The notes beneath the pieces are model-generated. The model ran no database searches. It was not told the DNA's origin and worked only from the letters and a program-made list of their open reading frames with translations. From contig JAFZOG010000093.1 in the NCBI GenBank assembly GCA_017550745.1, positions 1-38,896 on the forward strand: DNA of 38,896 nt, given 5' to 3'. Position 1 is the first letter of the stretch. Each line of letters opens with the position of its first letter. The position numbers and the translations under genes were made by a program. Positions 1,667-21,732 of this stretch are shown here, piece after piece. Origin of the DNA: Clostridia bacterium. GTDB taxonomy: Bacteria; Bacillota; Clostridia; Christensenellales; Aristaeellaceae.

Positions 1667-1709
1667 TTGACGAATAAATCAGAGTTATCCTGATGAGTTG
1701 GAGGAAATC

Positions 1710-3260
1710 ATGCAGCCCCCACAAGGTTCCAATCCGCAGGGCGGATACCCCGGCGGCCAGGGTTCAAGCCCTTCTCCCTGGGATCAGCCGCCCATGCTGA
1801 ATCAATGGATACAGCGGCCCGTGCCGGGGCAGCAGACCGGAAACGGGCCGATGCCGGGAGCGGCGCCCCCGCCGGCGCAGATCATGCCGGATCCGTCCCT
1901 GCAGCCGCCTTATTACGGCACGGGCCCACAGTCTATGCCCGGAGGGGAATATGGAAACGGCCCCCAGCCCGGCCAGCCGGATTATTCTTATGAAGAGATG
2001 CCTGCAGGGGCGGGATCCGCGCCTGTGTATCAGGTGCCCAAGACAGGGCTTCCCCGCGCGCGGCGCTCCCGGCCCAAATGGTGGATTTTCGTGCTGTTGG
2101 TCCTGGTGGTGGCCCTGGCCGGGTTCTTTGTTTGGCGGATGCTGACGCCCGGACAGGTTCAGTACGGCGTTGTGCGTTACGGCTCCATGTCCGCCACCTA
2201 TAGCGGCGACGCGGTGCTGGTGCGCAACGAAACCGTGGACGTGCAGGAGAACGTTTCCCAGATCGACTACCTGGTGGACGAAGGCAGCCGCGTCAAGCGC
2301 GGCGAGATCGTGGCCACCATCTACACCTCCGGCTTCAGCGCCAAGGAATGGACGACGCTCAAGCGTTACCGCGATCAGATCAAGGAATACCATAAGCTGC
2401 TGATTTCAGGGGCGACCACGGATTCCACCCTCCTGAACCTGATGACCCAGGTGCAGTCCAGGGCCATGGAGGTGCAGCGGCTGGTGCAGGGCGCGAAGGG
2501 CAGCGTCAGCGAACAGGAAAAGCTGCTCAAGAAGGCCATGGAAAACCAGCAATCCTACATCAAGCAGAAATACCCCGACGAGCAGAAGCTGAGCCGCCTG
2601 TATGACGACGAAAACACGCAGCTCCAGCGCATTTCCACCTGGACAAAACAGTTCGCCGCTCCCGGCGACGGGCTGGTGAGCTTTTACACCGACGGGTTTG
2701 AAAAAGCCCTGAACATGAACACCTACGCCGACTACAGCCCCTCGCAGGTGCGGGCCATGTACAACGGGCAGGCACCAACGCTGGAAACCACCGTTACCAC
2801 AAGGAACGCCGTGGACGTCTACCGCATGGTGCGGGAGGACAAATGGGTGGTGCTGATGCTGTGCCACGACCAGGACCGTACGCCCGCCAATGGGCAGAGC
2901 TTCCAGCTTGTGATCGAAAGCTTCGACAATCATCCCCTGCCCGCCACGGTCATCGACAGCGCCCGGTCCGGCGGCGAGCTGCTGGTGCGGCTGGAGGTAA
3001 ACGACGTTTCCTTCCTGCCCGACGTCATGTACCTGCGCCAATGCCAGGTACGGCTGAGCGAAAACGTGTACAGCCTCACGGTGCCCGCCAACGCGGTTTA
3101 CGTGCAGAACGGCCGCAAGGGCATCGTCATGTCCACGGAAGGCGGCGAATACTGGACGGGCGTGGAGGTCATCTCCTATTCCGACGACGGCCAGTATGCT
3201 TACGTGGTGCCGGACAAGCCGGAAGTGGTGTATGAAGGCGTCGTGGTGAGGCTCTTCTGA
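1710..3260 (+). CDS. HlyD-like single-pass membrane protein with Pro/Gly/Gln-rich cytoplasmic N-terminus
   Basis: The 516-residue protein resembles the periplasmic-adaptor (HlyD) fold but belongs to a Firmicutes type with no partner pump nearby. Residues 1-120 are rich in Pro, Gly and Gln and should be disordered in the cytoplasm. A membrane helix spans about 124-144 after a basic stretch. The outside part starts with a biotinyl/lipoyl-like segment (DYLVDEGSRVKRGEIVATIY, about 187-205), then a helical hairpin region and a beta-rich C-terminal part. The start at 1710 is set by GGAGG at 1700-1704. It is the first gene of the division operon, 48 bases before yggS. From this context I infer a role in envelope or septum biology, not efflux. 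Family call good, function open. Confidence 0.8.
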   Translation: MQPPQGSNPQGGYPGGQGSSPSPWDQPPMLNQWIQRPVPGQQTGNGPMPGAAPPPAQIMPDPSLQPPYYGTGPQSMPGGEYGNGPQPGQPDYSYEEMPAGAGSAPVYQVPKTGLPRARRSRPKWWIFVLLVLVVALAGFFVWRMLTPGQVQYGVVRYGSMSATYSGDAVLVRNETVDVQENVSQIDYLVDEGSRVKRGEIVATIYTSGFSAKEWTTLKRYRDQIKEYHKLLISGATTDSTLLNLMTQVQSRAMEVQRLVQGAKGSVSEQEKLLKKAMENQQSYIKQKYPDEQKLSRLYDDENTQLQRISTWTKQFAAPGDGLVSFYTDGFEKALNMNTYADYSPSQVRAMYNGQAPTLETTVTTRNAVDVYRMVREDKWVVLMLCHDQDRTPANGQSFQLVIESFDNHPLPATVIDSARSGGELLVRLEVNDVSFLPDVMYLRQCQVRLSENVYSLTVPANAVYVQNGRKGIVMSTEGGEYWTGVEVISYSDDGQYAYVVPDKPEVVYEGVVVRLF

Positions 3261-3308
3261 ATCCGCATTTCATGACACCGATTACTACGCAAAGAGGGAA
3301 GCCAGACA

Positions 3309-3974
3309 ATGCTCAAGGATCGCGTGGCCCAGGTGATGGACACCCTGAAGCGGGAAAGCGAGCCGTGGGGAAAATGCCCCCGGCTGATCGCGGTGACGAA
3401 GTATTCCACACCGGAAGAGATTCTTCCCCTGGCGGAGCTGAACGTGACCGACATTGGGGAAAACCGGGTGCAGTCCCTGCGGGAAAAGCTGCCCAGCCTG
3501 CAAGGAAAATTTTCAATTCATCTCATCGGACAGTTGCAATCCAACAAAGTTAAATATATAATAAAGGATGTATGCATGATCCATTCGTTGGATCACGCGT
3601 CCCTGGCCCAGGAAATCGACCGTCAGGCCGATCGGGCGGGGATACGGATGCCGGTGCTGCTTCAGGTGAACATCGCCAGGGAGCCTCAAAAGGGCGGCGT
3701 GACGGAAGAAGAGCTGTTTCCCTTCCTGCGCCAGTGCGCCAAGCTCAAGGGGCTGCAGGTGAAGGGGCTGATGACGATGATGCCCCTTCACGCGCCGGAA
3801 GATGTGATCACAGGATATTTTACCAGGATGCGCGCGCTGCTGGATCAATGCCGGGCAGAAGCGGTGGCGGATACCGATATGACCGAGCTGTCCATGGGCA
3901 TGTCGCAGGATTACGCGATCGCGGCGCGCTGCGGCGCCACCATGGTGCGCGTGGGTTCAGCTTTATTTCGATAA
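3309..3974 (+). CDS. yggS: YggS/PROSC-family PLP-binding protein
   Basis: This is the conserved pyridoxal-phosphate homeostasis protein (COG0325), a single TIM-barrel domain that binds and buffers PLP and has no proven enzyme activity. The PLP lysine is in LIAVTKYSTPEEI (Lys31). The family motif HLIGQLQSNKVKYI follows, and the C-terminus carries ELSMGMSQDYAIAARCGATMVRVG, which forms the phosphate-binding site. The length of 221 residues is usual. The ATG at 3309 has AGAGGGA upstream. It sits between the HlyD-like gene and sepF, 21 bases before sepF, the common arrangement in Firmicutes and Actinobacteria. Confidence is high for family and context; its exact cellular role remains unsettled in the literature. 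Confidence 0.95.
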   Translation: MLKDRVAQVMDTLKRESEPWGKCPRLIAVTKYSTPEEILPLAELNVTDIGENRVQSLREKLPSLQGKFSIHLIGQLQSNKVKYIIKDVCMIHSLDHASLAQEIDRQADRAGIRMPVLLQVNIAREPQKGGVTEEELFPFLRQCAKLKGLQVKGLMTMMPLHAPEDVITGYFTRMRALLDQCRAEAVADTDMTELSMGMSQDYAIAARCGATMVRVGSALFR

Positions 3975-3995
3975 AACGGCAGGAGGATTTCAGGC

Positions 3996-4958
3996 ATGGC
4001 TTTCGCGGATTTTTTTACCAACGTGAAAAACAAAGCGGCTCAGATGTATTCCAATTTCTTTTACGCGGGCAAGGACGTTCCCGCAGCTCCACGCCAGGAA
4101 CGTTCCTACGCAAGCCAGGAGCCGGCTCCTCCCCGGCAGTTCCAGGACAGCCAGCAGCAGTATCAGCCGTATTACGGTGATTACCAGTATCAGCAGCCTT
4201 ACCAGCAGCAGTATCAGCCTTCCTATCAGCAGCAGATGAGCGGCCAGGCTTCTCAGCCCCAGCAGCCTTTCCAGTACGGGCAGCCGGAGCAGCAGCCCCA
4301 GCAGCGGTCCCACCGCGCTGTCCGCCAGAACGGCAACGTGTTCAAGGTGGATTTCGGCGACAATCAGCAGCAGCCCCAGCAGCCTGCGGCCCAGCCTGTT
4401 CAGGAATCCGCTTCCCTGCTGAACGCCCGCATCATCAATGCCCGCGGCATGGGCGACTGCCGCAGCGCCATCACCCTGCTGCGCAACGGAGACGCGGTGC
4501 TGGTGGTGATGGAAAATATCACGAATCCGGGGGATATGCGCAGGCTGGTGGACACCCTGAGCGGCGCCTGCTATTCCCTCACCGCCACCATCACAAAGGT
4601 GTCCCGTTACGGCGTGTATCTCCTGGCCCCGCAAACCATCGCCGTTTTTGCGGATCAGGCCACGAACCAGATGAACGCAGGCCCTGCCCGCGGGCAGGCC
4701 CAGCGCTATCAGCCGAACGCTTACGCGCCTCAGCAGCCCATGTACACCAATCCCCTGCAGCAGCCCGCCCAGCAGCCGCAGGCTTACAGCCAGCAGCAAC
4801 AGCAGGAATTCACCCAGCGCGTGGCCGCCCCCCAGGAAGCCGCCCGGGAATTCTATCAGCGCCCCATGCCCCAGGAGGCGGGCATTCCGTCCTTCTCCAC
4901 CCAGCCTGCGGCGTCAGGCTATACGCCGGATGAGCATACCAGCGCTGTAGCGCAATAA
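3996..4958 (+). CDS. sepF: Cell division protein SepF with long Gln-rich flanks
   Basis: SepF is a membrane-binding protein that anchors and bundles FtsZ at the septum. Residues 1-20 form the amphipathic membrane-targeting helix (MAFADFFTNVKNKAAQMYSN). Residues 45-140 are an extreme Gln/Pro/Tyr-rich linker. The SepF domain covers about 142-220 (ARIINARGMGDCRSAITLLR to YGVYLLAPQTIAVF), with the Gly-rich dimer region. Another 100 residues of Gln/Pro/Ala-rich sequence follow. The total of 320 is about twice the usual 150, and the C-terminal extension after the domain is unusual. AGGAGG at 3981-3986 fixes the start. The gene lies between yggS and yggT in the division operon. The low-complexity tract is encoded by repeated cag codons, mostly in 4130-4320. 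Confidence 0.95.
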   Translation: MAFADFFTNVKNKAAQMYSNFFYAGKDVPAAPRQERSYASQEPAPPRQFQDSQQQYQPYYGDYQYQQPYQQQYQPSYQQQMSGQASQPQQPFQYGQPEQQPQQRSHRAVRQNGNVFKVDFGDNQQQPQQPAAQPVQESASLLNARIINARGMGDCRSAITLLRNGDAVLVVMENITNPGDMRRLVDTLSGACYSLTATITKVSRYGVYLLAPQTIAVFADQATNQMNAGPARGQAQRYQPNAYAPQQPMYTNPLQQPAQQPQAYSQQQQQEFTQRVAAPQEAAREFYQRPMPQEAGIPSFSTQPAASGYTPDEHTSAVAQ

Positions 4959-4999
4959 GCTGAACGGCATCTTTGCAGCCGAATCAGGAGGAACAAGCC

Positions 5000-5260
5000 A
5001 TGTTTTTGATTCGCGTCATTCGTTTTCTTCTCAGCATTTACGCGCTGATGCAGCTGGTGCAGTTCGCGCTCCCCTATATCGGCGGCGTGCAGAGCCCCTG
5101 GATGGTCACGCTGGGCAAATTCTGTGAGCCGGGCATCCGCATAGGCAATCAAGTCATCTCCCGCCTGCTGCCTGACCGCCAGTTCAAAATCGACATGGGC
5201 CCCCTTGCCGCGGCGGCGCTATGCTATCTTGCCCGCCTGATCCTGGGGATCTTCTTCTAA
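5000..5260 (+). CDS. yggT: YggT-family small membrane protein
   Basis: This 86-residue protein has a hydrophobic helix at each end (about 3-26 and 66-86) joined by a polar loop that includes a WMVTLGKFCEPGIRIGNQVI segment. The shape and the position between sepF and divIVA match the YggT/YlmG family, implicated in division and membrane organisation in Gram-positive bacteria and in nucleoid placement in plastids. AGGAGG just before the ATG at 5000 fixes the start. The RNA-binding gene ylmH that usually stands between yggT and divIVA is missing; divIVA follows after only 39 bases. Family assignment rests on size, helices and context more than on long motifs. Confidence 0.82.
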   Translation: MFLIRVIRFLLSIYALMQLVQFALPYIGGVQSPWMVTLGKFCEPGIRIGNQVISRLLPDRQFKIDMGPLAAAALCYLARLILGIFF

Positions 5261-5299
5261 TCGTTCATACCATCCCAAAATCGGAAAGGAGCAATCACC

Positions 5300-5854
5300 A
5301 TGGCTATTACCGTTGCGATGATCGAGGAAAAAGAGTTTAAGACCAAAATGCGGGGCTACGATCCCAATGAAGTGGATGAATTTCTGGATGAAATCTGCGA
5401 TGAAATGGTGGCCCTGCAGGAGGAGATCGCTACGCTGAACCAGCGGTTAAGCCAGGCTTCCCAGCAGTCCAGCGCTTACGCGCCTTCGGCAGTGCCTGCC
5501 CCGGCGCCGGTTGTTCCCGTGCCCGCTCCCGTTCCGGCTCCTGCCCCCGTAAAGAAGGAGGAGCCCGCGCCCCAGAAGGATGAAGTGAGCGCTTCCGCCC
5601 AGAAGCTGCTTGCCCGGGCCCAGAAGGTATACGACGATACCCTGGCCGATGCGCAGCAGGAGGCGGAACAGATTCTGGCGGACGCCAAAGCGAAAGCCGC
5701 GGAGCAGATCGGTTCCCTCGAGGATCAGCGCGACGCGCTGGCCAAGGAAGTGGATGAGCTGAAAGCTTCGGCCAAGGATTACCGTGAACGCTTCCTGCGC
5801 CTGATTGAGGATCAGCAGCATGTGCTGAAAGCCGAAACCGCCCTGTTTGAATAA
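5300..5854 (+). CDS. divIVA: DivIVA-domain cell division/polarity protein
   Basis: DivIVA proteins recognise curved membrane at poles and septa and recruit division or polarity factors. The 184-residue product has the standard N-terminal domain with FKTKMRGYDPNEVDEFLDEI (about 13-32). A first coiled coil follows, then a Pro/Ala/Val-rich linker (about 58-90) and a second long coiled coil (95-180). The usual lipid-binding Phe/Arg pair is represented by Phe13 and Arg18. AAAGGAG precedes the ATG at 5300. It is the last gene of the division operon and is followed by a strong terminator at 5870-5896. It could also be classed as the GpsB/Wag31-like branch, but the length fits DivIVA better. Confidence 0.93.
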   Translation: MAITVAMIEEKEFKTKMRGYDPNEVDEFLDEICDEMVALQEEIATLNQRLSQASQQSSAYAPSAVPAPAPVVPVPAPVPAPAPVKKEEPAPQKDEVSASAQKLLARAQKVYDDTLADAQQEAEQILADAKAKAAEQIGSLEDQRDALAKEVDELKASAKDYRERFLRLIEDQQHVLKAETALFE

Positions 5855-8827: not shown

Positions 8828-9853
8828 TTACGCCTGCTTCGCGCCGCATTCCGGGCAGAACTTGGCAGAGCGGGGAATGCGCTGGCCGCACTCGGAGCAG
8901 AACTTGGTGTCCGCGGCGGGGGCGGCAGAATCGGCGGCCTGGCGGATTTCCTGAGGCTGCTGCGCGGGGGCTGCCTGCTGATACTGGGGCACCACAGGCG
9001 CTTGCGCCGCGTTCTGCATGGCCTGGGCCATCATGGCTGCGGCGCCCATGCCCGCGCCGATACCGCCCATCCCGTTGGGATTGTTGGCGGCGTCGCGCAT
9101 GGCCTCGGCGGCCTGGAACTGGGTGTACTGGTTCAGGTCGCCCACCACGCCCATGGAGGTGCGGCGGTCGATGGCCTTTTCCACTTCGTCAGGCAGGGAG
9201 ATGTTTTCGATCACGAAGCTCTCCAGCTTGAGGCCCAGATTGGCGACCCGGGGAGCCAGCGTGTTCAGCGCGAACTGGGACAGCTCGTCGTAGTTGGCGG
9301 CCAGATCCAGGGCGGGAATCTTGCTCTGGGCGATGGCGTCGCTCAAACCCGACACCAGCGTGCGCTTGATCTGCCCGGTCACGCCTTCCACGGACATGTA
9401 AGCGGTAGTGCCGAACACTTCCTTGAGGAAGGCAACGGGATCGCTTACCCGGAAAGAATAGATGCCGAACGCCCGCAGGCGGATCATGCCAAACTCGGCG
9501 TCACGCATCATGACGGGGTTGCTGGTGCCCCATTTCTGGTCCAGGAACTGCTTGGTGTTGATGAAGTACACTTCCGCCTTGAAGGGGGAGTTGAAGCCGT
9601 ACTTCCAGGATTTGAGGGCGGTCATGATGGGCATGTTCTGGGTGGACAGCTCATACCGTCCGGGCTGGAACACGTCCGCCAGCTTGCCTTCGTTGACCAT
9701 GATGGCCACCTGGCTCTCGCGCACGGTCAGCTGCGCGCCCATCATGATTTCCTTGCCGTTGTTCTCGTAACGGTGCACCATCGTGTCGTTGGAATCGTCC
9801 TTCCATTCGATCACGTCAATGAGCTGGCCCTTGATTTTATCCAAAAGTCCCAT
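8828..9853 (-). CDS. SPFH/Band-7 protein with C-terminal double-cysteine zinc ribbon
   Basis: The 341-residue protein has an N-terminal SPFH (band 7) domain of the YdjI type, about residues 15-240, beginning MGLLDKIKGQLIDVIEWKDD. A low-complexity Ala/Met/Gln linker (about 250-305) leads to a zinc ribbon at the C-terminus with two CxxC pairs (FCSECGQRIPRSAKFCPECG). There is no membrane helix. Such proteins assemble as scaffolds at the membrane, and in Bacillus a related protein is linked to membrane stress. GAGGAGGG 10 bases before the ATG at 9853 fixes the start. The gene lies 53 bases downstream of the receiver-like gene and ends at a strong terminator. It is not closely related in layout to the second SPFH protein at 21923. 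Confidence 0.88.
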   Translation of the reverse strand: MGLLDKIKGQLIDVIEWKDDSNDTMVHRYENNGKEIMMGAQLTVRESQVAIMVNEGKLADVFQPGRYELSTQNMPIMTALKSWKYGFNSPFKAEVYFINTKQFLDQKWGTSNPVMMRDAEFGMIRLRAFGIYSFRVSDPVAFLKEVFGTTAYMSVEGVTGQIKRTLVSGLSDAIAQSKIPALDLAANYDELSQFALNTLAPRVANLGLKLESFVIENISLPDEVEKAIDRRTSMGVVGDLNQYTQFQAAEAMRDAANNPNGMGGIGAGMGAAAMMAQAMQNAAQAPVVPQYQQAAPAQQPQEIRQAADSAAPAADTKFCSECGQRIPRSAKFCPECGAKQA

Positions 9854-9906
9854 AACAATCACCCTCCTCAAAATATTATGATCAAATCGATCATTTGATT
9901 CGCTGT

Positions 9907-10716
9907 TTACACTTCCGCCCGGCACAGCAGGTCCTTCACGCTGTCCAGCCAGGCGGACTCGGTCACGGTCAGGTCAAGGTCAAGGTATTCCTTGATTTTC
10001 TGGATGCTTTCATTGATATGCCCGTCCGTCCGCATGCCAAAGGATTCCTTGGTTTCAGGCGCCTGCCCGTGCATGGGCATGCACACAATGCGGATATGCC
10101 GCGGGGTCAGCACCGCCACGGCGTAATAGATCCCTTCCACATAGCGGCCAAAGAAATTGTTTCGCAAAGCGCTTTCCAGCCGTTCCTGGGCGTGGCCGTG
10201 ATGCTCGGAGAGATACACTTCTCCCTGGGGCATGTCGATTTCGTACAGCACGCAGGGCTCGTCCAGGCTCACATGGGCGCGGATGAGTTTCATCTCACGC
10301 ATTACGCCTTCCCAGTCGTGCATCTCGCCGGCCAGCAGGGAATGCACCAGTTCATCCCGCTGGATGGTCAGCATGGTTTCCTCATCGTAATAGGCGTCGG
10401 CATAGTCCATCCGCAGCCTGTTCAGCACGGAAACCGTCTGCTCCAGCACAGGCACCTGCTGCCCGGGCGTTTCACACACCAGGAAAATCGGCAGGCTCGG
10501 GCGGCCGTAACGCAGAAATTTGGTCAGCTGTATGCCATCTATGTTGAAAAATCGGTAGCCCACCGCATCGATGGCTTTGGAGTTGAGCAGGTCAATGGCT
10601 TCCTGAGGGGAAGACGCCATGTAAGGCGCGCGGCAGTTCAGCCTGCCCCAATCGATCTGATCCCGAAACTGGGTGCGCAGGTCTTCCCGGTCTGTTACAA
10701 GCAGCAGTTTGTACAT
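9907..10716 (-). CDS. Degenerate YesN-like receiver protein without phosphorylation site or DNA-binding domain
   Basis: The 269-residue protein starts like a YesN-type response regulator (MYKLLLVTDRED, then a DWGRL segment), with receiver-like spacing over residues 1-110. The acidic pair is reduced to Thr-Asp. The phospho-acceptor position, in a stretch reading DAVGYRFFNIDG, has no Asp. The remaining 150 residues resemble the middle part of YesN-type regulators. The protein ends in IQKIKEYLDLDLTVTESAWL, which looks like the start of an AraC helix-turn-helix, but the domain is not completed. I infer a phosphorylation-independent pseudo-receiver acting through protein contacts. GGAGGG precedes the ATG at 10716, the promoter is excellent, and the SPFH gene follows in the same operon. 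Confidence 0.7.
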   Translation of the reverse strand: MYKLLLVTDREDLRTQFRDQIDWGRLNCRAPYMASSPQEAIDLLNSKAIDAVGYRFFNIDGIQLTKFLRYGRPSLPIFLVCETPGQQVPVLEQTVSVLNRLRMDYADAYYDEETMLTIQRDELVHSLLAGEMHDWEGVMREMKLIRAHVSLDEPCVLYEIDMPQGEVYLSEHHGHAQERLESALRNNFFGRYVEGIYYAVAVLTPRHIRIVCMPMHGQAPETKESFGMRTDGHINESIQKIKEYLDLDLTVTESAWLDSVKDLLCRAEV

Positions 10717-10753
10717 AAACCCTCCAACCTCATTTTCCTCGTTACCGAAAGAA

Positions 10754-10782
10754 ATTATATCATAAACGACACCCTCTGACAA
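10754..10782 (-). promoter_or_regulatory. Promoter of the receiver-like/SPFH operon
   Basis: On the minus strand TTGTCA (10777-10782), a 17-base spacer and TATAAT (10754-10759) form a near-perfect sigma-A promoter; the spacer also ends in TGA, giving an extended -10. The leader is about 30 bases. Confidence 0.85.
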
Positions 10783-10972
10783 TCTTTTTTTCCCGGATAG
10801 GAAAAATTGTTGTCCCCTGCCCCCCGGCCTACGCTGAAAACGGTACACTGTACCGTTTTCCGGGCGCTTCGGCCCCTGCGGATTTCAGTCGGGAGAGCTC
10901 CCCCGACACCCCCCACTGGAAATGCTGCTTGGTCTCCCTCAAATAGATGAATAGTAACCGCTTTCGCGCCGC
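10783..10972. repeat. Hairpin-rich intergenic block with a 25-bp palindrome
   Basis: This 190-base block lies upstream of both divergent promoters, so neither transcript covers it. It contains an imperfect inverted repeat that reaches back to 10778 and ends at 10819. A perfect 11-base inverted repeat with a 3-base centre follows at 10836-10860 (left arm GAAAACGGTAC). A short GGGC/GCCC hairpin lies at 10862-10875 and a GTCGGG/CCCGAC hairpin at 10888-10907. No reading frame with a ribosome site is credible. It may be a dispersed intergenic repeat, an operator or a small RNA locus. Confidence 0.55.
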
Positions 10973-16051: not shown

Positions 16052-16159
16052 TGAATAAATACACATAGATTATACATCCACTTTTCAATTTGTCAAGTGT
16101 TTTCTATGCTATTTTTCGATTATTTATACAGAAAAATAAATATGATGTATATTTTTACA
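16052..16159 (-). promoter_or_regulatory. Candidate arginine repressor (ARG) boxes upstream of argG
   Basis: Three AT-rich near-palindromic 14-mers resemble the general ARG-box form TGAAT-WWWW-ATTCA. One is at 16052-16065, with an exact TGAAT half on the plus strand, covering the expected transcription start. The others are at 16117-16130 (ending TATACA) and 16146-16159 (TGTA-N6-TACA). A promoter-proximal box plus distal boxes would suit ArgR repression by arginine. This rests on pattern alone. Confidence 0.4.
16069..16096 (-). promoter_or_regulatory. Promoter of argG
   Basis: On the minus strand TTGACA (16091-16096), a 16-base spacer and TATAAT (16069-16074) give perfect hexamers, 35 bases before the ATG. 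Transcription should start near 16062. Confidence 0.88.
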
Positions 16160-16178: not shown

Positions 16179-17057
16179 TCACTTTTCCTCAAGCGGCAGG
16201 AGCGGCTTGGGCACAGAGCCCCGGAAAGCGGTGGCTTCCTCGCCGCTTTCCACCGTCAAATCCCCATGGACGGAGCGCATGGTTTCCCGGGCGATGTACA
16301 GGCCCATCCCCCGGCCCTCGCCCTTGCCGGAGAAGCCCGCGTCAAAAATGGAATGCAGATGCTTTTCCGGGATGGCGGGGCCGTTGTTCTTTACCTCAAA
16401 GGAATAGCTCTTCACATCCTCATTCAGGGTGATCCACAGGCAGGGATGTTCCGTATCCTTCATGGCGTCCATGGCGTTGTCGATGAGGTTGCTCAGCACC
16501 CGGCACATTTCCCAGGCGGGCAGCGGCAGGTTTTCCCATACCGCCTGCACGGCGCATTCCACATGGATGCCCTTTTGCTCCGCCTCGGCGATTTTTACGC
16601 GCAGCAGGGCGTTTACCGGCGCGCAGGAGGTTTTGAGCGCTTTGCTCAGGGACTGGATATCGCCGTACACCTGCTCGATATAACGGTTGGCCTCCTCGTA
16701 TTCTCTCATTTCGATCAGGCTGTAAACCACCTGCAGATGATTCAGAAAGTCGTGCCGCTGGGCCCGGAGGGTATTATTCATTGCGCTCATCTGGCTGACG
16801 GTCTCGTCAAGGCCCCGGAGCTTGAAGGACAGCTTGCCCGCTTTGTACGCCTCCCGGATGTCCATCACCGCGCCCCAGGATACCACCGCCGCCAGCATCA
16901 GCACCACGATGTCCCCCAGGGGGCCGTGGAGGGACTGGTTCACCCCGTCATGGAGGATATATACCGCCAGCGCGCAGACAGCGATGATCTGCAGCGCGTT
17001 GATCACAATGGAATACAAGGCCGCCTTTTTGACGTTCACCTGGCGCTGGATTTTCAT
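16179..17057 (-). CDS. Membrane histidine kinase of the Spo0B/CitA-like type, orphan
   Basis: The 292-residue protein has two membrane helices (about 12-34 and 45-66) joined by a short loop, so it has no outside sensor domain. A helical region follows with the phospho-acceptor in RHDFLNHLQVVYSL (His near 101), the Spo0B-type alpha motif. A complete HATPase domain comes next: N box NLIDNAMDA, G1 NNGPAI, F box SIFDAGFSGK and G2 GRGMGLYIA. It can therefore bind ATP and autophosphorylate. No response regulator is adjacent. Its start overlaps the sigma-factor stop by ATGA, so it is translated with the dnaE-rsbW-sigma operon. I infer a signalling role tied to that sigma factor. Confidence 0.88.
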   Translation of the reverse strand: MKIQRQVNVKKAALYSIVINALQIIAVCALAVYILHDGVNQSLHGPLGDIVVLMLAAVVSWGAVMDIREAYKAGKLSFKLRGLDETVSQMSAMNNTLRAQRHDFLNHLQVVYSLIEMREYEEANRYIEQVYGDIQSLSKALKTSCAPVNALLRVKIAEAEQKGIHVECAVQAVWENLPLPAWEMCRVLSNLIDNAMDAMKDTEHPCLWITLNEDVKSYSFEVKNNGPAIPEKHLHSIFDAGFSGKGEGRGMGLYIARETMRSVHGDLTVESGEEATAFRGSVPKPLLPLEEK

Positions 17058-17791
17058 GTTTTTTCCGTCAGCTCCTTTCGCAGGGCGGCCAGGATGCGCC
17101 GCTCCATGCGGGAAATCTGCATTTGGGTCTTATTCATGCGGGCAGCCGTGTCGCGCTGGCTGAGCCGCTTTGTATAGCGGAGAAACAGCAGATGCGTTTC
17201 TTCCTCCGTAAGTATCCTGAACGCGCGGGCCAAATCCTCCCGCTGCTCGGCGTCATCGAAACCGGTTTCCAGGAAAGGGATCCGGTCCGCCAGCGTCAGG
17301 CCGCTTTCATCCGCTTCCTCTAAGGAGGCTACGCGGCCGGCAGACCGGGCGTTCCACGCGGTGAGCACCTTTTCGATATCCCAGTTCAATGCTTCGGCAA
17401 GCTGCCTGGGAGTGGGCTCGGCGTGATGCCTGTTCAAAAACGCCTCCCGCGCCTTTTCGATCTCCATCCCCTGTTGGCGCAGCGCCCGGGGCGCGCGCAG
17501 CAAAGGGGCCTGATCCCTTAGATAATTGCGCACCGCGCCGGTGACCGTGGGCGTTAAGTAGCTGGTGAATTTCAGGCCCCGTTCCGGATCGAATCCCTTC
17601 AAAGCGCTGACGCAGGAAAGGCAGGCCACCTGATACAGGTCGTCATACTCCGCCCCGCGGTTCAAAAACCTTCCGGCAATCAAAGCGCACAGGGGCAGGC
17701 AGGCTTCCAGCGCCCGGTTCAGGGCGTCCTGCGTCGGCGAAGCGGCGTAGCGGCACGCCATATCGTGCATGAGCGCGGCGTCGATGGCCAT
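17054..17791 (-). CDS. Sigma-70 family RNA polymerase sigma factor, SigB/SigF-like
   Basis: The 245-residue protein has region 2 (EYDDLYQVACLSCVSALKGF and then GLKFTSYLTPTVTGAVRNYL, about 48-90), a region 3 segment (TPRQLAEALNWDIEKVLTAW), and region 4 with the helix-turn-helix LSQRDTAARMNKTQMQISRM (about 213-232). The three-region build and size fit the SigB/SigF/SigG group and not the ECF group. It is encoded 3 bases after an RsbW-like protein and overlaps the kinase gene, which supports a partner-switch style module. Which sigma it is cannot be said; no spoIIA or rsb genes are beside it and its targets are unknown. The ATG at 17791 gives the full family length. Confidence 0.87.
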   Translation of the reverse strand: MAIDAALMHDMACRYAASPTQDALNRALEACLPLCALIAGRFLNRGAEYDDLYQVACLSCVSALKGFDPERGLKFTSYLTPTVTGAVRNYLRDQAPLLRAPRALRQQGMEIEKAREAFLNRHHAEPTPRQLAEALNWDIEKVLTAWNARSAGRVASLEEADESGLTLADRIPFLETGFDDAEQREDLARAFRILTEEETHLLFLRYTKRLSQRDTAARMNKTQMQISRMERRILAALRKELTEKT

Positions 17792-17794
17792 GGC

Positions 17795-18172
17795 TCACAC
17801 CCCGGCGGGCAGCGTCATGCGGACGCAGTGCACGCCTCCTTCGTCCTGGTCCAGGGCCACGTCCCGCACCAGGGTCTGAATGATCATCTGCGCGATGTCC
17901 GCGTCGGCCTTCTCTTCCTCCTCGCAGCGGGTGCGCTCCCGGGCGGTGAGGGTCACGTGCAGGCCGTCCGGCTCCTGCTCACAGGAAAGGGTGAGGGTTT
18001 CGGCGGTGTAGTCCTGGTGCAGCAGCAAATCGCAGCTTTCCTCGATGGCGGTGTTCAAATCGTCCATCAGGTCCAGCGGCAGGTCATACAAAGCGCTCAC
18101 GCCGCTGGCGGCCATGCGCAGCACCAGCGCCCATTCCTTTTTCGCGGGCACGGTCAGGATCATCGGGGTCAC
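17795..18172 (-). CDS. RsbW/SpoIIAB-like anti-sigma protein with lost ATP-binding boxes
   Basis: The 125-residue protein has the size and helix pattern of RsbW-type anti-sigma kinases (HATPase_c_2). The N-box helix is DLNTAIEESCDLLLHQ and the last part (DIAQMIIQTLVRDVALDQDE) matches the region that in RsbW reads like GLFLIETLMDEV. The Asn that holds magnesium in the N box is absent and the Gly residues of the G1 and G2 boxes are missing. I infer that the fold is kept for binding the sigma factor encoded directly downstream while kinase activity is lost. The GTG start at 18172 overlaps the dnaE stop and has GGAG 5 bases upstream; an ATG at 18163 is the alternative. No RsbV-type antagonist gene is nearby. 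Confidence 0.7.
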   Translation of the reverse strand: MTPMILTVPAKKEWALVLRMAASGVSALYDLPLDLMDDLNTAIEESCDLLLHQDYTAETLTLSCEQEPDGLHVTLTARERTRCEEEEKADADIAQMIIQTLVRDVALDQDEGGVHCVRMTLPAGV

Positions 18173-21100
18173 GGCTTCTCCACCACCTTCATATCTTGTT
18201 CGTCCAGGTCAAAGAGCAGGGCGGTTTTCGTCTGGTTCGCGTCCCGCACCCACAGGGCCCGGGGGCAAAGCAGGGTGATCCCTTCCTGTGGCAGGTTGAT
18301 ATACACCGGCACGCTGCCCGGGGTTTTCCCCAGCATGGCCTGGATGCGGGGCATCTGTTCCCGGTTCATGCGCAGGTACAGCTTGGTTTTCGCTTCCTTG
18401 GCGATCTGGGCGTCCGTGCGGGTGTCCGCCGGCTTGGGCAGCGATTCGCCCAGGGCCTCTACCAAATCCACCAGCAATTTGGTGTCCTCGTCATCCCGGA
18501 CGGACAGTTTGCCCGTTACCAGCACCGCCTGGTCGGCGGCCAGGGCGCGGCCATATCGTTCGAATACCTTGGGAAACATGAGGCATTCCACCTGCCCGGT
18601 CTGATCCTCCAGGGTGAAAAAGCCCATCAGCGCACCCTTGCGCGTGGCCTTGCTGTGGGCTTCCACGATGATGCCGCCCATGACCACCCGCCGTCCGTCC
18701 TCGGAAAGGCCCTTATCCTCCCTGTCTTCCATCTCAGCCAGGTACGCCGTGTTCACCTGCAGGTTTTTCAGCTGTTCCGCGTATTCGTCCAGGGGATGGG
18801 CGCTGCAATACACCCCCGTCATTTCCTTTTCCTGGGAGAGCAGCTCCTTCAGCGGATACTCCGGGATGGACGGGAAGGTTTCCTTGGTGCGCATCGCCTC
18901 AGCGGGCTGGCCGAAATCGAACAGGGAAATCTGGCCGGTCACGTTCTGCTTGCGCTGGTTCAGCTGGGAATCCATGGCGGATTCGTATACCGCCACGCAC
19001 TGGGAGCGCGCCGCGCCCAGGCCGTCGAAGCACCCGGCTTTGATGAGGCTTTCCACGGCCCGCTTGTTCACATCCTCCCCGGCCACCCTGCGGCAGAAAT
19101 CGAAAATATCCTGGTATGGGCCGTGGTTAAAGCGCTCGCGCACGACGGCCTCCACCGCCTTTTCGCCCACATTCTTCACCCCGCCCATGCCGAAACGAAT
19201 GCCCTGTTTTCCCTCCGGCGTTTCATCCACCGTAAAGGGGGCGAAGGAAGAATTGACGCGGGGCGGCAGGATGGGGATGCCCTTCTGGCGGCAGTAATAG
19301 ATATACCCGGCGATCTTGGCGCTGTTGCCGGTGACGGAATTCATCAGCGCCGCCATGAACTCGGCGGGATAATGGTATTTGAGATACCCCGTCTGCAAGG
19401 CCACCACGGCGTAGCAGGCGGCGTGGGGCTTGTTGAAGGCGTAGGAAGCGAAGGAGGTCATCTCGTCGAAGATGGACTCCGCCACCTCGGCGGAAACCCC
19501 TCTGGACACCGCGCCGGGGATGTGGTCTTCCTCGGAGCCGTAGACGAAGTTTTTCCGCTCCTTGGCCATCACGTCCTTTTTCTTCTTTGCCATGGCGCGG
19601 CGCACCAGGTCGCTGCGGCCGTAGGAATAGCCTGCCAGGTCGCGCACGATCTGCATCACCTGCTCCTGGTACACCATGCAGCCGTAGGTCACGTCGAGGA
19701 TCGGCGCCAGCAGCGGCGTCTTGTACTGTACCGTTTCCGGGTGCTGCTTACCCCGGATATAGCGGGGAATGGAGTCCATGGGGCCGGGGCGGTAGAGGGA
19801 AATGGCGGCGATGATGTCCTCAAAGGTGCGGGGGCGCATGTTGGTCAGGAACGTGCGCATCCCGCCGCCTTCCAGCTGGAACACCCCGTCGGTGTCCCCC
19901 GCGCAGATCATGTCGAACACGGCGGGGTCGTCCATGGGGATGTCCTCGGGCCTCAGGTGGATGCCGCGCTTTTCGACCATATCCAGCGTATCCCGGATGA
20001 CGGTCAGCGTGCGCAGGCCCAGGAAGTCCATTTTGAGCAAGCCCAGCTTTTCGATGATGCCCATGGGGTACTGGGTAGTGATCACGTCGTCGTTCTTCTG
20101 CAGGGGTACGTAATGGGTAGCGGGCTCGCGGGTGATGAGCACCCCTGCCGCGTGGGTGGAAGCGTGGCGGGGCATGCCTTCCAGGGTCAGGCCCGTATCG
20201 ATCAGGCGCTTCACCTTGGGGTCGGATTCATACATATCCCGCAATTCCTTGTTCTGGCCCATGGCCTTTTCCAGGGTCATGTCCAGCGCCATGGGCACGG
20301 CCTTCGCCACCGCGTCCACATCGGCGTAAGGATACCCCAGCACCCGGCCCACGTCCCGCAGCACGCCCCGGGCCGCCATGGTGCCGAAGGTGATGATCTG
20401 GCACACGTGGTCGTGGCCGTATTTCCGAGCCACGTAGTCGATGACCTCCTGCCGCCGCTCGTAGCAAAAGTCCACGTCGATATCCGGCATGGACACCCGC
20501 TCCGGGTTCAGGAAGCGCTCGAACAGCAGCTGGTATTTCAAAGGATCCAGCATGGTGATGTTCAGGCAATAGGCCACAATGCTGCCCGCTCCGCTGCCGC
20601 GGCCGGGTCCCACCATGATGCCGTTGTCCTTGGCGTATTTGATGAAATCCCACACGATAAGGAAATAATCCACATAGCCCATGGAGGAGATCACGTTCAG
20701 CTCATATTCCAGGCGTTCCCGGGCTTCCCGGTCGTCCGGGGCATAGCGCTCCTTAAACCCCTCCTCGCACAGCCGCCGCAGCATCGTATCGGACGTTTCC
20801 CCCTCCGGCACGTCGTACCGGGGCAGGTGAACGGTGTGGAAGTCAAAGTCCACCCGGCAGCGCTTCGCGATTTCCTCCGTGCGCCGGATGGCCTCATCCT
20901 GCTCGGGGAACAGCCCCCGCATTTCGTCCTCGGATTTGACATAGAGCTCCTGGGTGTGCTGGCGCATCCGGTTGTCGTCCTCCAGGGTCTTGCCCATCTG
21001 GATGCACATCAGCACTTCCTGGGCGTCCGCGTCTTTGCGGGTCAGGTAGTGGCAGTCGTTGGTGACCACCAGGGGAACGCCGGTGCGCCTGCTCATCTCG

Positions 21101-21663
21101 ATCAGCCTTGGCCGCACGGTCTTTTCCTCATCCAGGCCGTGGTCCATCAGCTCGATATAATAATGGTCGGGGCCGAACAGGTCAGCCATCTTCTTGATGT
21201 ACGCTTCCGCGTCGGTGTAGCGCTCCTCCAGCAGCAGCTTGGGCAGATCCCCGGAGATGCAGGCGGACAGGGCGATCAGGCCCTCATGGTGCTTGCGGAT
21301 GAAATCATAGTCCATGCGGGGGCGGTAATAGAAGCCGCGCGTGAACGCCTCGCTCACCAGCGCCATCAGGTTCCTGTAGCCGGTTTCGTTCTCGCACAGC
21401 AAAATCAGATGGCTGTATTCCCGGGAGAGGGTGCGCTTGTCCTCCATGTCTGGGCACACGTACACCTCGCACCCGATCACGGGATGGATGCCCGCGTCTT
21501 TGCACGCCTGGTAAAACTCCACCGCGCCGTAAAGCACGCCATGGTCGGTGATGGCGCAGGCGTCCATGCCCAGCTCCTTTACGCGCTGAACCAGCTTCTT
21601 GATCCGGCACGCCCCGTCCAGCAGGCTGTACTCTGTGTGCAGGTGCAGATGCGCAAACGCCAT
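18169..21663 (-). CDS. dnaE: DNA polymerase III alpha subunit, DnaE type
   Basis: This is the replicative polymerase chain used in Firmicutes beside PolC, mainly for primer extension on the lagging strand. The 1164 residues include an N-terminal PHP domain with metal motifs HLHTEYSLLDG (6-16) and ITDHGVLYGAVEFY. The palm has the catalytic acidic motif PDIDVDFCYERR near residue 394 and GPGRGSGAGSIVAYC before it. Fingers, a helix-hairpin-helix region and a C-terminal OB domain (VLVTGKLSVRDDEDTKLLVD) follow. AAGGAGGG lies 8 bases before the ATG at 21663. The stop codon overlaps the RsbW-like gene, so this essential gene heads a four-gene operon with a sigma factor and a kinase. Confidence 0.97.
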   Translation of the reverse strand: MAFAHLHLHTEYSLLDGACRIKKLVQRVKELGMDACAITDHGVLYGAVEFYQACKDAGIHPVIGCEVYVCPDMEDKRTLSREYSHLILLCENETGYRNLMALVSEAFTRGFYYRPRMDYDFIRKHHEGLIALSACISGDLPKLLLEERYTDAEAYIKKMADLFGPDHYYIELMDHGLDEEKTVRPRLIEMSRRTGVPLVVTNDCHYLTRKDADAQEVLMCIQMGKTLEDDNRMRQHTQELYVKSEDEMRGLFPEQDEAIRRTEEIAKRCRVDFDFHTVHLPRYDVPEGETSDTMLRRLCEEGFKERYAPDDREARERLEYELNVISSMGYVDYFLIVWDFIKYAKDNGIMVGPGRGSGAGSIVAYCLNITMLDPLKYQLLFERFLNPERVSMPDIDVDFCYERRQEVIDYVARKYGHDHVCQIITFGTMAARGVLRDVGRVLGYPYADVDAVAKAVPMALDMTLEKAMGQNKELRDMYESDPKVKRLIDTGLTLEGMPRHASTHAAGVLITREPATHYVPLQKNDDVITTQYPMGIIEKLGLLKMDFLGLRTLTVIRDTLDMVEKRGIHLRPEDIPMDDPAVFDMICAGDTDGVFQLEGGGMRTFLTNMRPRTFEDIIAAISLYRPGPMDSIPRYIRGKQHPETVQYKTPLLAPILDVTYGCMVYQEQVMQIVRDLAGYSYGRSDLVRRAMAKKKKDVMAKERKNFVYGSEEDHIPGAVSRGVSAEVAESIFDEMTSFASYAFNKPHAACYAVVALQTGYLKYHYPAEFMAALMNSVTGNSAKIAGYIYYCRQKGIPILPPRVNSSFAPFTVDETPEGKQGIRFGMGGVKNVGEKAVEAVVRERFNHGPYQDIFDFCRRVAGEDVNKRAVESLIKAGCFDGLGAARSQCVAVYESAMDSQLNQRKQNVTGQISLFDFGQPAEAMRTKETFPSIPEYPLKELLSQEKEMTGVYCSAHPLDEYAEQLKNLQVNTAYLAEMEDREDKGLSEDGRRVVMGGIIVEAHSKATRKGALMGFFTLEDQTGQVECLMFPKVFERYGRALAADQAVLVTGKLSVRDDEDTKLLVDLVEALGESLPKPADTRTDAQIAKEAKTKLYLRMNREQMPRIQAMLGKTPGSVPVYINLPQEGITLLCPRALWVRDANQTKTALLFDLDEQDMKVVEKP

Positions 21664-21703: not shown

Positions 21704-21732
21704 ATTATAACGCAACCGAGGCGGAATGTAAA
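21704..21732 (-). promoter_or_regulatory. Promoter of the dnaE-rsbW-sigma-kinase operon
   Basis: On the minus strand TTTACA (21727-21732), a 17-base spacer and TATAAT (21704-21709) lie 41 bases before the dnaE ATG. Confidence 0.82.

Follow-up and report, generated by a model that had tools for sequence, protein, structure and literature searches.

The window analyzed here, a 38,896-nt stretch of DNA (contig JAFZOG010000093.1) from a Clostridia bacterium, carries on its minus strand a run of genes in the order dnaE, RSBW, SIG, and HK, with argG next downstream. The first gene, dnaE (18169..21663), encodes the DNA polymerase III alpha subunit (NCBIfam PRK06826, 1670.7 bits against a cut-off of 1260). 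It is followed by a GTG-started gene for an RsbW-like protein of 125 amino acids, a probable anti-sigma factor (RSBW; 17795..18172), then by a gene for a 245–amino acid sigma factor of the SigB/SigF/SigG type (SIG; 17054..17791), and by a gene for a Spo0B-type histidine kinase (HK; 16179..17057). The dnaE and RSBW genes overlap at GTGA, RSBW and SIG are separated by 3 bases, and SIG and HK overlap at ATGA. A sigma-A–type promoter (TTTACA-17-TATAAT, 21704..21732, minus strand) with 11 of 12 consensus matches is located upstream of dnaE, and comparable sites were seen by eye upstream of dnaE in sequences from the same genus. The exact coordinates thus agree with the first-pass annotation, which had described four overlapping or nearly touching genes behind one promoter. 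Since argG has a perfect promoter of its own (TTGACA-16-TATAAT, 16069..16096, minus strand; 12 of 12 matches), the operon probably ends at HK. One more promoter-like site, with 9 of 12 matches, lies within dnaE; when scored by consensus matches only, the region contains six promoter-like sites compared to 2.4 expected in shuffled sequences.

Several other genes of the window deserve mention. The protein encoded at 9907-10848 (minus strand) has an N terminus that looks receiver-like by eye, lacks the phospho-acceptor Asp, and has no Pfam match; it adjoins a Band_7/SPFH zinc-ribbon protein encoded at 8828-9925. Close to the contig end, 38289-38741 (minus strand) looks by eye like the gene segment for the C-terminal portion of a tyrosine recombinase.

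In kinases of the RsbW/SpoIIAB type, the Asn of the N-box coordinates Mg-ATP. RSBW of the window has neither this Asn nor a Gly-rich lid. The same is true of its 84 relatives from the order, none of which has Asn at the position four residues after the N-box Glu (0 of 84) or a GxG-type lid pattern (0 of 84), in line with the earlier description of an RsbW-like protein without these boxes. Despite the loss of the Asn and the lid, the N-box Glu45 is invariant in window RSBW and in all 84 relatives, and 80 of the 84 retain Arg19, which we take to be the counterpart of SpoIIAB Arg20. Taken alone, the RSBW sequence does not reach the curated Pfam and NCBIfam cut-offs; homology to the RsbW/SpoIIAB family was found at the profile level: The family profile (A1) matched the solved structures of Bacillus subtilis RsbW (6m36, E 1.9e-12) and mycobacterial RsbW (8jzt, E 4.4e-11), and in the alignment with the latter protein, Asn is likewise absent from the N-box position. 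A confident AlphaFold2 model of RSBW (pLDDT 92.3, pTM 0.86) has no lid helix among its predicted elements. Since the ATP motifs are missing, RSBW is not expected to phosphorylate an RsbV itself, which argues, as had been proposed, against the usual partner switch. The accompanying statement that no RsbV gene is present holds for the operon but not for the genome, where five STAS-like matches were detected. Another locus of the window's genome (L235, 359-2958, minus strand) encodes, directly behind a 731–amino acid protein with an N-terminal membrane segment, an RsbW-like protein in which N and G boxes are recognizable; the boxes and the membrane segment were both assigned by eye.

For SIG, the best NCBIfam model was TIGR02980 (E 4.7e-51; 173.7 bits, below the cut-off of 234.35). 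Regions 2, 3, and 4 of the SigB/SigF/SigG subfamily were all recognized, with Pfam Sigma70_r2 and r4 above their cut-offs and r3 borderline (25.2 bits versus 25.3). Structure prediction for RSBW and SIG, carried out as a read-through fold, gave a pTM of 0.38 and no confident placement, from an alignment (A8) that contained 8 of 23 RSBW rows, all 23 SIG rows, and 2 fused rows. It is the genomic linkage of the two genes that suggests binding of SIG by RSBW.

The arrangement is well conserved in the genus. Where relatives are named (23 records), they are uncultured Clostridia sampled from rumen and gut. In 20 of the 24 same-genus loci examined, dnaE, RSBW, SIG, and HK follow each other in the same order on one strand; 4-base overlaps were found between dnaE and RSBW in 20 of 20 and between SIG and HK in 18 of 20 loci. 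Such conservation argues that the arrangement is not due to chance. As far as can be judged from sequence, the RSBW-SIG pair is also cotranscribed with dnaE, which supports the idea that its expression is tied to that of the polymerase gene. All three genes are under purifying selection, with median dN/dS values of 0.30 (0.06 to 0.79) for RSBW, 0.33 (0.12 to 0.49) for SIG, and 0.25 (0.04 to 0.48) for HK, calculated from pairs with dS below 1.5.

The four remaining loci are incomplete. One of them (L106 in genome G023) is truncated where the contig begins. At L104 (G022), dnaE, RSBW, and SIG are present and no HK was found within 3.4 kb behind SIG, while at L107 (G009) and L108 (G019), dnaE is followed by HK, and RSBW and SIG are missing. 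Searches elsewhere in the G009, G019, and G023 genomes did not reveal RSBW, and the best sigma matches there had scores typical of other sigma factors; similarly, no HK was found elsewhere in G022. The G009, G019, and G022 genomes are 77 to 83% complete. In the dnaE tree, from the drawing of which sister relations were read, G019 is sister to G015, which retains RSBW-SIG (support 100/99), and G009 is placed elsewhere with lower support. Since G019 and G009 are not sisters, RSBW and SIG were probably lost twice, both genes together each time. G022 is sister to G001, which retains HK (100/100). Co-occurrence of HK with the RSBW-SIG pair within the genus (both in 21 genomes, HK only in 3, the pair only in 1, and neither in 0) is too uniform for testing.

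Beyond the genus, RSBW and SIG are most often accompanied by two other genes. Of 396 genomes covered by an order-level search, 104 gave a match; the weakest matches are probably ordinary RsbW proteins. Sixty stretches were taken around part of the stronger matches and combined with three loci obtained earlier. A SIG homologue lies directly behind RSBW in 59 of the 60; the exception is L227. This locus belongs to a genome (G094) with two RSBW copies, one in a full operon (L226) and the other, L227, without an adjoining sigma factor. The order STAS-RSBW-SIG-GHKL was observed in 35 of the 63 loci, from nine families, including one locus (L199) with a weak GHKL match of 38 bits. RSBW-SIG alone was found in 24 loci, 18 of them in the window's family (f1) and 6 in family f23, and four loci (L112, L206, L227, and L233) are cut or exceptional. 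All 21 operon STAS proteins scanned matched Pfam STAS, with Ser57 invariant, and all 20 GHKL proteins scanned matched HATPase_c_2, with E45, N49, and GRG invariant. The GHKL proteins thus retain the ATP motifs that are absent from RSBW; a profile comparison between them and RSBW gave a weak match (probability 3.9).

In the window, as in the rest of its family, the operon has no gene for a separate ATP-competent GHKL protein or for a STAS antagonist. Across 25 same-genus genomes, no orthologue of the operon-type STAS protein was found (70 bits or less compared to 139 to 142 bits in G025 and G037), nor of the operon-type GHKL protein (28 bits or less compared to 84 to 137 bits in G025, G027, and G037). 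One same-genus locus (L245, 2037-3434, plus strand) contains a compact operon for a STAS protein, an intact RsbW, and a short, 216–amino acid sigma factor, which by eye appears to be of the SpoIIA type. As judged by eye, many STAS-RSBW-SIG-GHKL operons precede an HlyD-like gene together with yggS-, sepF-, and divIVA-like genes; a cluster of this kind, with no RSBW-SIG, lies at 1698-5854 of the window. A SigB/SigF-like promoter upstream of the STAS-RSBW-SIG operons was considered and rejected: There was 1 match in 22 upstream stretches compared to a mean of 2.61 in shuffled sequences.

In genera g18 and g21, the RSBW-SIG pair lies between dnaE and two further genes at all seven loci. At the only one of these loci that was scanned (L177), the two genes encode a DnaD/DnaB-type protein and a helicase-loader–like ATPase. 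The SIG tree groups g1 with g18 and g21 (support 100/99), which makes the move of the pair behind dnaE look like a single event. A branch with support 89/88 has the window's family on one side, with f23 placed apart from it; two separate losses of STAS and GHKL are therefore likely, depending on where the tree is rooted. The position of the root likewise decides between f1 having lost the two genes and f1 never having had them.

The same combination extends to other parts of the class. A search with the RSBW profile at an E value of 1e-9 matched 125 of 392 genomes, 115 of them outside the order; loci were taken for 40 of the 115, and 36 had full context. Split STAS-RSBW-SIG-GHKL operons occur in several families beyond the window's order (e.g., L331-L341; 21 of the 36 full-context loci). 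In these other clostridial orders, an extra GHKL gene accompanied none of 11 ATP-intact RsbW proteins and 21 of 25 degenerate ones, that is, those lacking the N-box Asn as read from raw residues; the exceptions are L342, L344, L346, and L349. The sample behind these counts leans towards degenerate RsbW since the profile was built from degenerate members, and the position rule for GHKL misses the GHKL protein of L218 (84 bits), which was detected in the order-level survey. The Fisher value for the association of N-box state with GHKL is 2e-6, which ignores relatedness and is not a proof. In the SIG tree of the class, the ATP-intact loci fall into one group together with three of the four exceptions (100/98). 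Most of the correlation therefore falls on this one split and comes close to a single evolutionary event rather than many independent ones.

The histidine kinase at the end of the operon has a different set of associations. HK contains SPOB_a (E 4e-19) and HATPase_c (E 1.5e-18) Pfam domains, and its phospho-acceptor H102 as well as N190, D193, N194, G250, and G252 are invariant in 25 aligned rows. The first-pass annotation had described it as an orphan kinase with neither a sensor domain nor a response regulator. We likewise found no separate sensor domain, but hydropathy predicts two membrane helices; and while the neighborhood indeed contains no response regulator, the genome does encode a REC-LytTR regulator elsewhere. 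Full-length or near–full-length HK-like proteins occur in 27 genomes outside the genus, and 21 of their loci were read. Eight of the 21 lie beside NfeD-FloA, and a REC-LytTR regulator is present at seven of these eight, the stretch of the eighth (L294) ending before the regulator position. The other 13 loci, some of them shortened by the contig, have neither FloA nor the regulator.

An orthologue of this regulator was found in 21 same-genus genomes and in G040 (273 to 300 bits compared to 82 or less for other matches, G040's own aside), and FloA is its neighbor at 18 of 20 loci (19 same-genus and 1 of G040). Both regulators that were scanned contain the Pfam Response_reg and LytTR domains. Across 41 genomes, HK and the regulator are both present in 22, HK only in 3, the regulator only in 0, and neither in 16. 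The HK-only genomes are G017 (65% complete), G023, and G011, where HK is a fragment at a contig end. This co-occurrence has a p value of 9e-9, which ignores relatedness, largely reflects a contrast of the genus with other families, and is not a proof. In G001 (L085), HK and the regulator gene are convergent neighbors. G009 and G019, which lack RSBW-SIG, retain both HK and the regulator, and G022, which retains RSBW-SIG, lacks both. Taken together, co-occurrence with the regulator, adjacency to it elsewhere, and separability from RSBW-SIG suggest that the dnaE operon carries, in HK, what is most likely the kinase of a LytTR two-component system, and phosphotransfer from HK to the LytTR regulator, encoded at G000:C110:60330-61073, would be expected.

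These data bear directly on the proposal that an orphan kinase acts on the anti-sigma/sigma pair. Direct action of HK on RSBW or SIG, by phosphotransfer or binding, would replace the missing STAS and kinase branch, and the position of HK as the next gene, with a 4-base overlap at 18 of 20 loci, behind a pair that in the window's family has no STAS or GHKL gene of its own, is what such a role would predict. However, HK co-occurs with the LytTR regulator and lies next to it in G001 and, outside the genus, at 7 of 21 loci. It is also found without the pair in G009 and G019, as is the pair without HK in G022 (the genomes being 77 to 83% complete), and other genera of the family have RSBW-SIG with no HK behind. 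We therefore consider a route from HK to the sigma factor unlikely and regard direct action on either protein as highly improbable. The place of HK in the operon and its 4-base overlap with SIG in most relatives do fit some joint role with the pair.

Overall, the reading we favor, with a probability of about 0.7, is that RSBW is an anti-sigma factor without kinase activity that holds SIG as part of a split-type partner switch, with the release partner located elsewhere, and that HK works with a LytTR regulator. RSBW would hold SIG without binding ATP or acting as a kinase. In a split switch of this kind, one RsbW paralogue would bind the sigma factor, and a second, ATP-competent GHKL protein would phosphorylate the STAS antagonist, which in its unphosphorylated form would pull the holder off the sigma factor. 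In the ancestor of the three genera, RSBW-SIG may have come to sit behind dnaE and thereby under its housekeeping-type promoter. Release of SIG would then presumably fall to a STAS protein encoded outside the operon or to some other partner, with HK riding in the dnaE operon and working with its LytTR response regulator.

How SIG might be released is the point at which other readings diverge. The presence of STAS proteins in same-genus genomes and of the STAS–intact RsbW–sigma operon at L245 makes release in trans by other STAS proteins possible. A fully classical switch in trans, with a STAS protein from another operon (e.g., one of the SpoIIA type) binding RSBW and the kinase of that operon phosphorylating it, draws on the same two observations (the five matches in the window's genome and the operon recognized by eye) and on the retention of Arg19 in 80 of 84 relatives. 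Yet no same-genus STAS protein scores like the operon STAS proteins (70 bits or less versus 139 to 142), and we consider this switch possible but clearly less probable than the favored reading. More doubtful is control of SIG by an anti-sigma factor that is no kinase and lacks a dedicated antagonist, its supply being coupled to replication genes (dnaE plus, in two genera, the genes for the DnaD/DnaB-type protein and the helicase loader) and its release to a new input, which might be a replication protein or some ligand occupying the vacated ATP pocket. RSBW might also have ceased to be an anti-sigma factor and become a stabilizer or assembly partner of SIG, whose activity would be set by transcription of the operon. 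An operon with no antagonist or kinase, its housekeeping-type promoter, and the joint presence or absence of RSBW and SIG would all suit such a partner, but the RSBW profile resembles those of RsbW anti-sigma factors, and kinase-less RsbW1 of Mycobacterium smegmatis is an inhibitor (PMC7693655), so that we find a stabilizing role unlikely.

If the reading of RSBW as a kinase-less holder of SIG is correct, the window's family offers a natural experiment: Its operon is without the control branch, and the holder and the sigma factor are still under selection beside replication genes. Packing into one operon in the relatives would also make the split switch easy to test outside pathogens. Our literature searches for such a system in Christensenellales or Clostridia returned no description, and any claim of novelty is limited to those searches.

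The closest classical counterparts are the Bacillus operons sigB, with the gene order rsbV-rsbW-sigB, and spoIIA, with the order spoIIAA-spoIIAB-sigF. The relatives of the window share with them the STAS-RsbW-sigma order and a sigma factor of the SigB/SigF/SigG type. In the Bacillus systems, however, one protein is both the anti-sigma factor and the kinase, whereas RSBW lacks the ATP motifs. HK resembles kinases of LytTR two-component systems in its Spo0B-type helix domain and in having a REC-LytTR orthologue that adjoins it in some other genera; unlike in those systems, the kinase gene of the window's genus lies behind dnaE, and the regulator gene is mostly found beside FloA elsewhere. The SigF switch of M. 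smegmatis (PMC7693655) resembles what we propose. There, SigF is bound by RsbW1, which is not a kinase, and RsfB is phosphorylated by RsbW2, which shows no binding to SigF. Common to both are an RsbW homologue without kinase activity in the anti-sigma role, a second homologue with the N, G1, and G2 motifs as the kinase, and a STAS antagonist with a regulatory serine. In contrast to the mycobacterial case, the clostridial roles are assigned from sequence, and the window's family has no STAS or kinase gene in the operon. The RsbW genes of M. smegmatis are located at three loci (PMC7693655); in many clostridial families, they sit in one compact operon together with the STAS and sigma genes. The mycobacterial division of labor between a holder RsbW and a kinase RsbW may thus be common in Clostridia, where it would be packed into a single operon.
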